Assembly (NCBI RefSeq): GCF_020037015.1
Contig: NZ_JAIQDE010000034.1
Coordinates: forward strand, 1 to 64,000
Length of the DNA stretch: 64,000 nt
Direction: 5' to 3'
Source: Corallococcus sp. AS-1-6
GTDB taxonomy: Bacteria > Myxococcota > Myxococcia > Myxococcales > Myxococcaceae
Every line of letters starts with the position of its first letter. The first letter of the stretch is position 1. A model generated the notes under the pieces. It was not told the DNA's origin, ran no database searches, and worked only from the letters and a program-made list of their open reading frames with translations. A program made the position numbers and the translations under genes. Of this stretch, positions 37,038 through 40,574 are shown one piece after another.

Positions 37038-37796
37038 TCACGGCGCGGTGGACGCCGGCTCCAGGTCCAGCCGCACGTCCACGAAGCTGTAGGCCGGCCA
37101 CGGCCCCGTGAACCGGAACGTGTACGCGTCCAGCCGCGCCACCAGCGACTGCACCCGCGCCTCGAACGCGGCCACCCGCGTGCGGTCCACCAGCCAGGCC
37201 GCGTTGAGCATCATCCGCTCACCCAGCGGCGGCGCTTCGTGCGTCGCCTCCGCCAGCGGACGCAGGCCCGCCCTCAGCCCGTCCAGGTCCTTCCGGATGC
37301 GGTCGTGCAGCGCCGCCTCCAGCCGCGCCTCGTGGTCCTCCTCGAGCTCCGCCGGGCCGCGCGCCAGCTCCGGCCGCGCCTCCTGCAACTCTCGCGTCAG
37401 CGCGTCGCCGTGGCAGTACACCTTCAGCCCCAGCTCCACCCGGCCCTCCAGCTCGGACAGCGCCCGGCTCAGCGGCGCGCGCGCCACGCGCAACAGCTCC
37501 CGCACGCGCTCCTCCGACGGCAGCACCGTCCCGAAGGCCACCGGCACCAGCGTGTGCTCGCGCACCACGGCCTCCGTGACGCGCTGGTGCATCAGCAGGT
37601 TCGCCCGCGTGGGCACCACCCGCGGGCCCGTGACGTCGGACACCAGCGCCGCGAGGCCTCCCTCTCGCACCCGCCGCACCGGCGCCTCCCCCAGCCCCGC
37701 GAGGTCCTGCTCCCCTCCGCCGTCCTCGCGCACGATGCCGTAGAGATAGTGCGCCCGTGCCTCGCGCGAGGACTCCGCCTGGGTCTTCGTCGTCAT
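37038..37796 (-). CDS. GvpL/GvpF family gas-vesicle protein
   Basis: Predicted 252-aa protein of the GvpL/GvpF family. Signs are the opening strand HYLYGIVRED, the central block RANLLMHQRVTEAVVREHTLVPVAFGTVLPSEERVREL, ELGLKVYCHGD, and the C-terminal TFRFTGPWPAYSFVDVRL, the family's ferredoxin-like end. In gas-vesicle clusters GvpF/L bind the shell protein and are accessory assembly proteins. Here it is last in an operon headed by a GvpA-like gene, with a kinase and receiver between, 33 nt after the receiver gene. No other gvp gene is nearby. Confidence 0.9.
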   Translation of the reverse strand: MTTKTQAESSREARAHYLYGIVREDGGGEQDLAGLGEAPVRRVREGGLAALVSDVTGPRVVPTRANLLMHQRVTEAVVREHTLVPVAFGTVLPSEERVRELLRVARAPLSRALSELEGRVELGLKVYCHGDALTRELQEARPELARGPAELEEDHEARLEAALHDRIRKDLDGLRAGLRPLAEATHEAPPLGERMMLNAAWLVDRTRVAAFEARVQSLVARLDAYTFRFTGPWPAYSFVDVRLDLEPASTAP

Positions 37797-37829
37797 GACG
37801 TGCCCCCTGCCTCCGTGCAGCCGCCCGCT

Positions 37830-38240
37830 TCAGCGCGTGGATGCCGCGTCACGCCGCGCAATCATCTTCTTCACCTGGTCCACCAGCGCGTCCGGCAGAC
37901 ACGGCTTGGTGACGTACGCATCACACCCGGCCTCGTTCGCGTCCTCCGAGTGGCCCTTCAGCGCATGCCCCGTGAGCGCCACCACCGGGATGCCCTTCGT
38001 GCGCGCGTCGCCCTTCAGCCGGCGCGTCGCCTCCCAGCCGTCCATCACCGGCAGCGACAGGTCCATCAGGATGACGTCCGGCACCAGCTCGAAGGCCTTG
38101 TCCAACGCCTCCTGGCCGTTCTTCGCCTCCGCCACGCGGAAGCCCGAGAACTCCAGGTACTCCGCGTACATCTCCCGGGCATCCTGGTAGTCGTCCACCA
38201 CCAGCACGAGCGGCTTTGTCTTTTCCGGGGTGTTCGTCAT
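37830..38240 (-). CDS. Receiver-only response regulator
   Basis: Predicted 136-aa CheY-like protein with no output domain. Acidic pair VVDDYQD (Asp16-Asp17), phospho-acceptor Asp60 in LMDLSLPVMDG, ALTGHA with Thr90, and Lys112 in YVTKPC. The sequence is close to receivers that partner sensor kinases. Its ATG overlaps the kinase stop (ATGA), so they are a cognate pair. With no DNA-binding domain, its output must be protein-protein; the GvpL/F protein encoded next is an obvious candidate partner (inference). Confidence 0.93.
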   Translation of the reverse strand: MTNTPEKTKPLVLVVDDYQDAREMYAEYLEFSGFRVAEAKNGQEALDKAFELVPDVILMDLSLPVMDGWEATRRLKGDARTKGIPVVALTGHALKGHSEDANEAGCDAYVTKPCLPDALVDQVKKMIARRDAASTR

Positions 38241-40351
38241 GTCCGTCTCGCACGTCTTGGAAAGTGCAGGGTGAAGGTCGAACCCTGGCCCGGAGCGCTC
38301 TGGAGGGAGACGCGTCCCCCCAGCATCTCGGCCAGGCGGCGGCAGATGGACAGGCCCAGGCCCGTTCCCCCATAGGCACGCGTGGGAGAGCTGTCCACCT
38401 GCTGGAAGTCCTCGAAGATCTTCTCCTGGTTCGACACGTCGATTCCGATGCCTGTGTCCTTCACCGAGATGGCCACGGTGCCGGTGGCGTTCTGATACTC
38501 CGCCGCGATGTGCACGCCGCCCTCGTGCGTGAACTTCAGCGCGTTGGACAACAGGTTGAGGACGATCTGCTTCACCTTCTGTCGGTCGCTCCACACCCCC
38601 GGCAGCCCCTCATCCAGGCGCGTCTCCACCGTCAGCTTGCTGCGCGCGATGATGGGGTCCATCTCCGCCATCACCTCCTGGATGAGCTCCGGGATGCCGA
38701 AGTCCGACAGGTGCAGCGGCATCCGCCCCGCCTCGATGCGGGTGATGTCCAATATCTCGTTGATGACCTCCAGCAGGTGCCGCCCGTTGGAGTCGATGCG
38801 CGTGAGGTTCCTGCGCTGCGGCGGCGTCATCTCCCCGGACACGCCCTGCAGGAGCATGTTCGTGTAGCCGAGGATGGCGTTGAGCGGCGTGCGGAACTCA
38901 TGCGACATGTTGGCCAAAAACTGCGACTTGGCCGCGCTCGCCTGCTCCAACTGGATGGCCTGCTGGCGCAGCAGCTCGTTCTGCTCCGCCAGCTCCGCGG
39001 TGGCGGACTGCACGCGCGCCTCCAGCTCGCTGGAGACCTCCTTCACGCGCTCCAACAGCCGCGCCCGCTCCAGCACCTCCGTGCGGTCGTGGAACACGGT
39101 GACGATGCCCGTCAGCTCGCCCCCGTCGCCCAGCACCTTGTTGGCCATGGCCTCCATGGGCACGGGCGCGCCGGTGGCCGGGTCGTCCAGCGTCAACTGG
39201 CTCTTCCAGCGGGACACGCCCGCGTTCACCGGCCCCAGCAGGTTCGCGAGGAAGGACGCGAAGAGCGCGTCGTTGGCGCGCACCCGGCGCAGCGTGGCCT
39301 CGCCGCCGGCGCCCTCTTCGTGAGGCCAGGCGAAGAGGCGCTCGGCCGGGTCGTTCATCATCACCATGCCGCCCGCGGGGTCGGTCAGGATGATGGGGTC
39401 CGCCACCGAGTCCAGCACCCGGTCCAGGCGGTGGCGCTCGCTCCGGGCCTCGCGCTCCGTGGCGCGCAGTTGCCGGTAGCTCTCCCCCAGCGCCTGCGTG
39501 GCGCGGCCCAGGTCCGTCAGGTTGCGCAGCACGCTCACCACCACGGACGGACCGTCCGGGGCCAGCACCGGGGTGGTGGCCAGCTCGAAGAGCAGGTCCA
39601 TGCCCTCCAGCGGATCCACCAGCGACACCTCGCGCCGGTGCACGGACGTGCCGCCCTGCGCGAGCGTCTCCCGGAACAGGCGCTGGTTGAGCTCCACGGC
39701 GCGCGTGCGGCCGGGGCTCGCGTCCGGGCCCGCCACCAGCAGCGCTTCCGCGCGGGCGTTGGCGAAGAGCAGCGTGCCGTCCGTGTCCGTGAGCAGCACC
39801 GGATCCGACACCGCGTTGATGACCCGGCGAAGCAACCGGTCCGGCTCCGGGCGGCGCGGCGCGCGCGCATCCGAGGCCAGTTGCCGGGCCAGGAGCGGCC
39901 CCGCGCACGACGCCACCCACGCCACGTCCTCCGGCACCGCCGGTCCAGGCAGCCCCACCACCAGCAGCGCGGCCGCGGGCGCTCCGGCGCGGCCCAGCGG
40001 CACCGCGAAGAACCCGCCCGGCATCACCGCGCCCTCCACCGCGTCCGCCGCCAGCCCCCGCGCCCCGGGCCGGTTGCGGAAGCCCGCGAGCGGCGAACCC
40101 TGCGCGTCCCACGCCCGGGCCAGCGCGGCCTGCTGCGCCCCGGTCAGCCCTTCGCTGGCCAGGCACGCGGACGCCCCCGCGCCATCCCCCGGCCCGACAC
40201 AGGCGGCGGGCACGCCATGTCTGCGCGCGAGCCACTCCACGACCGCGCGCGCACAGGCGACGGCGGACTCGCAGGCGAGCAGGTGCTCGGCGAGCACGAG
40301 GCGCGCCCCGGGATCGGCTTCGGCGGGGGGCAGCGGGGCTGGGGACGCCAC
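38237..40351 (-). CDS. Cytoplasmic PAS sensor histidine kinase
   Basis: Predicted 704-aa kinase from GTG 40351. Order: an N-terminal GAF-like region (about 15-160), two PAS domains (about 170-290 with VINAVSDPVLLTDTDGTLLF, 305-430 with LDSVADPIILTDPAGG), a coiled coil (430-478, HisKA lead), the H-box NMSHEFRTPLNAILGYTNML with His484, and HATPase_c with N-box Asn603 in NLLSNALKF, DTGIGI and GGTGLGL. No membrane segment, so the signal is intracellular. The start is set by the gene 4 nt upstream; the frame is open further but overlaps that gene. No receiver is attached; the receiver is the next gene. Confidence 0.9.
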   Translation of the reverse strand: MASPAPLPPAEADPGARLVLAEHLLACESAVACARAVVEWLARRHGVPAACVGPGDGAGASACLASEGLTGAQQAALARAWDAQGSPLAGFRNRPGARGLAADAVEGAVMPGGFFAVPLGRAGAPAAALLVVGLPGPAVPEDVAWVASCAGPLLARQLASDARAPRRPEPDRLLRRVINAVSDPVLLTDTDGTLLFANARAEALLVAGPDASPGRTRAVELNQRLFRETLAQGGTSVHRREVSLVDPLEGMDLLFELATTPVLAPDGPSVVVSVLRNLTDLGRATQALGESYRQLRATEREARSERHRLDRVLDSVADPIILTDPAGGMVMMNDPAERLFAWPHEEGAGGEATLRRVRANDALFASFLANLLGPVNAGVSRWKSQLTLDDPATGAPVPMEAMANKVLGDGGELTGIVTVFHDRTEVLERARLLERVKEVSSELEARVQSATAELAEQNELLRQQAIQLEQASAAKSQFLANMSHEFRTPLNAILGYTNMLLQGVSGEMTPPQRRNLTRIDSNGRHLLEVINEILDITRIEAGRMPLHLSDFGIPELIQEVMAEMDPIIARSKLTVETRLDEGLPGVWSDRQKVKQIVLNLLSNALKFTHEGGVHIAAEYQNATGTVAISVKDTGIGIDVSNQEKIFEDFQQVDSSPTRAYGGTGLGLSICRRLAEMLGGRVSLQSAPGQGSTFTLHFPRRARRT

Positions 40352-40355
40352 GACC

Positions 40356-40574
40356 TTACGCTCCGGGTGAAGGGGGACGCGGGGGACGGCCGCGTTCCGG
40401 CGAGTCTGCGGTGCGGACCTCCGAAAATGCCACCACGATGCGCGCCTCCCCGTCCAAAGAAGAGGGGCGCCCCAGGACCTCCTGGGCCGGCGTGTCGAAG
40501 CGCAATCCCCTGTCCAGCAGGCGGTCCAGCACGTCCACCAGGCTGGCCCCACCAGCCACGCGTTCCACGGGCAT
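40356..40574 (-). CDS. GvpA-family mini-protein with altered beta-hairpin
   Basis: Predicted 72-aa protein. From residue 9 it aligns without gaps to GvpA shell proteins as I remember them: SLVDVLDRLLDRGLRFD (helix 1) and EARIVVAFSEV (helix 2) with the same 32-residue spacing to the EARI motif. The segment that in GvpA forms the hydrophobic beta-hairpin of the gas-vesicle wall is here polar and Pro-containing (TPAQEVLGRPSSLDG). The tail ends Pro/Arg-rich. ATG 40574 is chosen because AGGAG lies 10 nt upstream and the start MPVERV matches GvpA; ATG 40583 is the alternative. First gene of the operon, 4 nt before the kinase. Confidence 0.75.
   Translation of the reverse strand: MPVERVAGGASLVDVLDRLLDRGLRFDTPAQEVLGRPSSLDGEARIVVAFSEVRTADSPERGRPPRPPSPGA

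Follow-up and report, generated by a model that had tools for sequence, protein, structure and literature searches.

What are two proteins of the gas-vesicle families doing on either side of a two-component system? This question is raised by an operon of Corallococcus sp. AS-1-6 (Myxococcaceae) in a window of 64,000 nucleotides, the whole stretch of DNA that was analysed (positions 1 to 64,000 of contig NZ_JAIQDE010000034.1, assembly GCF_020037015.1). In this operon a GvpA-like gene, a histidine kinase (HK) gene, the gene of a receiver-only response regulator (REC) and a gene of the GvpL/GvpF family follow one another. The best overall explanation, to which we give a probability of about three in four, is that they represent the regulatory and docking block of a lost gas-vesicle cluster, kept by selection. 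The genes are, in the order of reading:

40356..40574, minus strand: GvpA-like gene, 72 amino acids (aa), with helix alpha-1 retained and the hydrophobic beta-hairpin gone
38237..40351, minus strand: HK gene, 704 aa, GTG start, encoding a soluble histidine kinase
37830..38240, minus strand: REC gene, 136 aa, encoding a single-domain response regulator that consists of a receiver only
37038..37796, minus strand: GvpL/F gene, 252 aa, of the GvpL/GvpF family

From the GvpA-like gene to HK, REC and GvpL/F, the junctions measure 4 nt, a 4-nt overlap (−4) and 33 nt, and in these junctions, as in the coordinates of the four minus-strand genes, the initial annotation of the window was exact to the base. 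The GvpA-like start at 40574 agrees with the orthologues, whose N-terminus reads MPVER, and the upstream ATG is not conserved. Operons of this reduced kind, here called relics, occur in other members of the family, and because the order GvpA-like, HK, REC, GvpL is conserved in every relic locus read, with the 4-nt and −4-nt junctions repeated in nearly all of those measured, the four-gene arrangement is not due to chance.

The first step towards an answer is to ask whether gas vesicles could still be made. That the window has no second gvpA, gvpK or gvpG, as noted in the initial annotation, holds for the whole genome of 9.5 Mb (completeness estimate 100%); GvpN, of which that annotation saw no gene in the window, was not searched separately. 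The GvpL/F profile PF06386 has one match in the genome, instead of two or more paralogues, no GvpA-like gene was found beyond the window copy, no GvpK match rises above the cut-off, and GvpG gives sub-threshold matches only, while genomes that bear a cluster do score in the same searches. A complete gvp cluster elsewhere in the genome, which the same annotation had named as one observation that would speak against it, was considered and rejected on these grounds, and a gas vesicle is not expected from this gene set.

The GvpA-like protein itself points the same way. Its own scores are weak, with 15.6 bits against PF00741 (below the cut-off of 25) and 25.9 bits against the NCBIfam GvpA model NF006874. 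Nevertheless, the assignment is secure, because it rests on the orthologues, on intermediate forms and on the homology of the N-terminus, residues 1-52 being aligned without gaps to canonical GvpA. A joint profile of relic and canonical sequences also matches 8gbs and 7r1c, solved structures of gas-vesicle shell proteins, a match that shows the family only, since the profile contains canonical members. In canonical GvpA the hairpin forms the gas-facing wall. The mean hydropathy of residues 24-52 is −0.07 in the window protein versus +1.44 to +1.61 in nine canonical GvpA proteins, and across sixteen relic GvpA-like proteins that of the hairpin goes from −0.28 to +0.29, so that the hydrophobic alpha-beta-beta-alpha shell fold of a functional gas-vesicle cluster is not found here. 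The decay is graded, GvpA being canonical in one genome of the family (G044), intermediate in another (G040, 29.6 bits, still above the Pfam cut-off) and fully eroded in the genus of the window; comparison of the sequences suggests that the erosion of the hairpin was at least partly parallel among lineages. An intact GvpL fold would agree with the idea that these genes still build gas vesicles, or another gas-filled shell, with other parts encoded elsewhere in the genome. Against the lack of any other GvpA, of GvpK and of GvpG, and against a gas-facing hairpin that is no longer hydrophobic, the chance of this is practically nil.

Where the operon comes from becomes apparent from complete clusters. 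In a genome of a sister family (G118), one contig carries GvpJ, GvpA, HK, REC, GvpL, an ArsA-type ATPase, GvpF, GvpJ, GvpF and GvpK in this order, every part being confirmed by Pfam. Within the Myxococcaceae, G044 has canonical GvpA and then HK, REC, GvpL, GvpG and a further GvpL/F, with flanks that match those of the relics. Relic loci are bordered at one end by Gld-type ATP-binding cassette (ABC) transporter genes with DUF4340, and at the other usually by genes for a flavin adenine dinucleotide (FAD)/Rieske oxidoreductase, a hemerythrin, AlkA and an alcohol dehydrogenase. The G044 cluster is split over two contigs, and its middle is not seen joined: the contig with DUF4340 and Gld holds a third GvpL/F and GvpK, and the alcohol dehydrogenase flank is on the other contig. 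A scan across phyla, with one genome per species, found the block GvpA-HK-REC-GvpL in 17 of the best 80 loci examined, mostly in Acidobacteriota, Rokubacteria, Planctomycetota and Myxococcota (two have a doubled receiver, and two are relics). The kinase comes directly after GvpA in another order in 22 of these 80, mostly from Gemmatimonadota, Chloroflexota and Acidobacteriota, and no related kinase adjoins GvpA in the Bacillota clusters of the scan. In many complete clusters of these last three phyla (L124-L158), excluding Bacillota, the kinases right after GvpA are mostly 26-47% identical to the window HK, which suggests that gas-vesicle-linked two-component systems are widespread. In three Rokubacteria clusters (L107, L109, L111), GvpL is followed immediately by another kinase and receiver.

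In a tree of kinase core and receiver, some of the deepest forks of which are weakly supported, the relics and the loci that retain only kinase and receiver form one group beside G044 and G043, with complete clusters outside. Gene order, orthology and a matching locus thus link the window to complete clusters, and because these clusters share the order, G044 also has the flanks and the tree nests the relics, the operon is almost certainly a remnant of an ancestral complete gas-vesicle cluster. The initial annotation had instead pictured a system put together anew, whose Gvp pair had been enlisted to serve a phosphorelay as scaffold or output. The composition of the operon and the lack of further gvp genes agree with such a history, but complete clusters of other families and of several phyla regularly contain this block, as does G044 with its matching flanks, and HK and REC exist without the Gvp pair in 12 genomes; de novo assembly was therefore rejected and must be regarded as extremely improbable. 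The other half of that proposal, a repurposed Gvp pair, fared better, as the pair no longer makes gas vesicles in this organism and has stayed alongside the two-component system in dozens of species, which argues for a repurposed unit rather than for chance.

If the operon is what remains of a cluster, the next question concerns what has been kept. In the GvpA-like protein this is the following segment:

40497..40574, minus strand: codons 1-26 of the GvpA-like gene, which encode helix alpha-1 (MPVERxxGxxSLVDVLDRxLDRGLR) and correspond to the segment by which Halobacterium GvpA binds GvpF

In three lineages the ratio of nonsynonymous to synonymous differences (pN/pS; like the substitution ratios dN/dS given below, a simple pairwise count with no codon-bias model) is 0.25, 0.19 and 0.14 for residues 1-26 and 0.65, 1.04 and 0.97 for residues 27-43 of the hairpin, with synonymous change in both blocks. 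Because synonymous sites vary in residues 1-26 as well (pS of 0.22-0.32), the constraint acts at the level of the protein and not of DNA or RNA, and alpha-1, as judged from these counts, is under strong purifying selection. The AlphaFold model has a helix at 12-22. In Halobacterium, split green fluorescent protein experiments found GvpF to be the only accessory partner of GvpA; the GvpA fragment 1-22, which is alpha-1, binds GvpF twice as strongly as whole GvpA, fragments 20-47 and 44-76 do not bind it, and the residues named for binding include R15 and K19 (PMC7688916). In the alignment these two correspond to R18, invariant in the relics, and to R22, which is R or Q there. As alpha-1 is the GvpF-binding part in Halobacterium, the relic protein has kept the segment expected to dock GvpL/F and lost the one that makes the shell.

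One could also consider the GvpA-like gene as merely a leader reading frame for the translational coupling of the kinase, as the 4-nt gap to the kinase start and a C-terminal PGA are nearly constant. However, the constrained part is the N-terminus, distant from the kinase start, with synonymous sites that vary, and a leader frame leaves the retained GvpL unexplained, which together make this quite improbable.

Preservation by selection is likewise apparent in the two-component proteins. The kinase is organized as follows, with positions shifted by 67 to fit the GTG start:

residues ~1-172: N-terminal domain without a Pfam match
residues ~173-423: two PAS domains
residues ~474-542: HisKA domain
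residues ~589-700: HATPase domain

Its catalytic boxes, for the phospho-accepting histidine and for ATP binding, are intact, while REC scores 87.8 bits against PF00072 and conserves the phospho-accepting aspartate, the acid pocket, the Thr/Ser and the Lys. Pairwise dN/dS is 0.26-0.34 for the kinase and 0.16-0.26 for the receiver. The phosphotransfer chemistry of both is intact as far as their residues tell.

The distribution of the four genes in the family indicates which parts belong together. Among 96 genomes of Myxococcaceae, GvpL/F is present in 58, and 65 encode a protein orthologous to the kinase or to its core. Wherever the kinase bears PAS domains, in 53 of 53 genomes, the GvpA-like gene adjoins it, and these genomes also encode GvpL, one copy being broken (G065). 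In 12 genomes of four genera (L071-L082), the locus is reduced to a shortened kinase and the receiver; GvpL is absent, a motif search found no remnant of alpha-1 in these loci, and the kinase lacks about 250 residues including both PAS domains, while its N-terminal domain and core stay. The PAS region is thus present in all GvpL-bearing loci tested and absent from 12 of 12 Gvp-free loci, and conversely one lineage without the N-terminal kinase domain retains the PAS domains and both Gvp genes. This joint presence and absence links the PAS part with the Gvp pair, with small statistical weight. The initial annotation had listed kinase and receiver orthologues regularly found without the Gvp genes among the observations that would count against it, and 12 of the 65 family genomes are of this kind. 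Since kinase and receiver persist alone there, the Gvp pair cannot be the sole output, and it is more likely to be an input or a modulator. Eleven relic genomes also carry a separate cluster with several GvpL/F genes or a canonical GvpA, and no related kinase or receiver was found in the separate clusters that were read (L051, L052, L054, L058). Named carriers of the relic include Hyalangium versicolor, Myxococcus vastator, Myxococcus xanthus AM003 and Pyxidicoccus caerfyrddinensis.

GvpL is the part for which retention by selection is most in need of discussion. Its identity is unambiguous: it scores 213 bits against PF06386 (cut-off 23.6), and its AlphaFold model, with a mean confidence (pLDDT) of 89.1, has the two-domain GvpF fold, at template modelling (TM) scores of 0.75-0.82 to the solved GvpF structures 6l5d and 4qsg. 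Open frames were rejected as proof of its function because GC-rich DNA leaves frames open by chance (0.18-0.44 in a neutral simulation at 85-90% GC), and constraint was judged by rate and residue conservation instead. Pairwise dN/dS is 0.41-0.53, below 1 in every pair, and the relic proteins share 47 invariant columns with those of complete clusters. In G065 the relic GvpL (L066 7625-7843) has an internal deletion; that genome also has a separate gas-vesicle cluster.

These data bear on a reading in which only the kinase-receiver pair is functional and the GvpA-like protein and GvpL are dying passengers, held open by GC content and position. Passive decay of this sort would account for the persistence of kinase and receiver in the 12 genomes without Gvp genes, for GvpL being the fastest-evolving full-length gene of the block, for the deletion in G065 and for open frames in a GC-rich genome. 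It is harder to reconcile with strong selection on alpha-1 at the protein level in three lineages, with the invariant GvpL columns and dN/dS values below 1, and with the presence of both Gvp genes in 53 of 53 genomes of the PAS-kinase group. We regard it as unlikely, the most serious of the alternatives nonetheless, and consider that the whole block, GvpL included, has probably retained a function.

How might a docking block work once the shell is gone? We propose an ancestral cluster of the type GvpJ-GvpA-HK-REC-GvpL-GvpG-ArsA-GvpF-GvpJ-GvpF-GvpK. The Myxococcaceae lost shell formation from it, with the other gvp genes gone from the locus and the hydrophobicity of the GvpA hairpin gone as well, while selection probably retained kinase, receiver, GvpL and alpha-1 of GvpA. 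The residual GvpA may then be a GvpL-binding peptide, GvpA and GvpL together may form a soluble partner for the kinase, acting on its PAS part and tuning phosphotransfer to the receiver, and the receiver, having no output domain, would act on a partner outside the locus. Several observations weigh against retention by selection or against this scheme: the tree allows the joint loss to be as few as one or two independent events; 12 genomes manage without GvpA and GvpL; GvpL evolves faster than kinase, receiver and most flanking genes, which suggests relaxed constraint; the model of the GvpA-like protein has a pLDDT of 63 and is poor beyond alpha-1; and the binding data are archaeal only and GvpF-based, Halobacterium GvpL having no clear GvpA binding (PMC7688916). 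The specific mechanism, a GvpA peptide that binds GvpL and acts on the PAS kinase, is argued by analogy with Halobacterium and is possible, if rather doubtful. Tentatively, at odds somewhat below even, the operon may be described as a shell-free module in which a docking-helix GvpA and GvpL partner a PAS kinase and receiver, whose parent pair would be an unrecognised control of gas-vesicle clusters in soil phyla.

Among known systems, the operon is related by descent to gas-vesicle clusters, GvpL/F proteins and two-component systems, and it is not a functional gas-vesicle cluster. It is most similar to the complete GvpJ-GvpA-HK-REC-GvpL-ArsA-GvpF-GvpK clusters, in gene order, in its orthologous HK, REC and GvpL and in the GvpA N-terminus; these clusters (G118, G044 and metagenome-assembled genomes of several phyla) have canonical GvpA, GvpJ, GvpG, more GvpL/F, the ArsA ATPase and GvpK, whereas the window has none of these. 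It shares with the haloarchaeal GvpA-GvpF pair the alpha-1 part, which there is bound by GvpF, a member of the GvpL/F family, for the assembly of the shell (PMC7688916); for the window pair such binding is predicted. Published gas-vesicle clusters with an ArsA homologue of ~637 aa beside the gvp genes resemble the ancestral type in this gene, which the window has lost, and no kinase or receiver is mentioned in the part of that source consulted (PMC2963123). As to regulation, Serratia ATCC 39006 encodes the regulators GvrA, GvrB and GvrC within its gas-vesicle cluster, GvrA being of the NtrC family and acting with sigma-54 on gvpA1 (PMC4982088); the window differs in having a cytoplasmic PAS kinase and an output-less receiver between gvpA and gvpL, and no working cluster. 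Gas-vesicle-like clusters of Streptomyces, soil bacteria in which a possible other function has been discussed (PMC4982088), keep many more gvp genes, whereas the window has two Gvp proteins and a two-component system. Haloarchaeal clusters are regulated by GvpD/E, and the 2022 review that describes them is silent on histidine kinases, response regulators and two-component systems (PMC9501494). Neither a kinase-receiver pair located between gvpA and gvpL nor a shell-less gas-vesicle remnant was found described in the open-licence literature searched, which is not proof of absence.

The region next to the operon adds a lead on the signal that the kinase may sense. Here lies the following element:

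40686..40712, minus strand: candidate operator, inverted repeat CCAACA-N15-TGTTGG (arms 40712-40707 and 40691-40686), in the divergent intergenic region 40575-40801

Of nine aligned loci from the genus, nearly all preserve the repeat intact, and this candidate operator would be common to the operon and the divergent FAD/Rieske oxidoreductase gene. In the window, positions 40802-44870 encode a FAD-dependent Rieske oxidoreductase, a hemerythrin-like protein, an AlkA-like glycosylase and an alcohol dehydrogenase. Most relic genomes keep these neighbours beside the operon, and kinase-only genomes keep some of them. In the sister family, complete clusters (L091, L095, L103) likewise have a hemerythrin-like gene nearby. 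With an oxidoreductase and a hemerythrin conserved alongside the operon, the signal might concern oxygen or redox state, as a lead only.

What, then, would the locus mean for the biology of these bacteria? Part of a flotation organelle was apparently retained for a different job and, if true, this would be a clear case of an organelle assembly machinery that outlives its organelle. A shell protein stripped to the segment that, in the studied relative, binds the assembly factor would represent an evolutionary test of the handover of GvpA to GvpF/L. In addition, the kinase-receiver pair seems to be a regular member of complete clusters in soil phyla, in which the control and use of gas vesicles are poorly understood. 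Finally, Myxococcus xanthus, a standard genetic organism, is represented among the relic carriers by strain AM003, so that the role of the retained block may be addressed directly.

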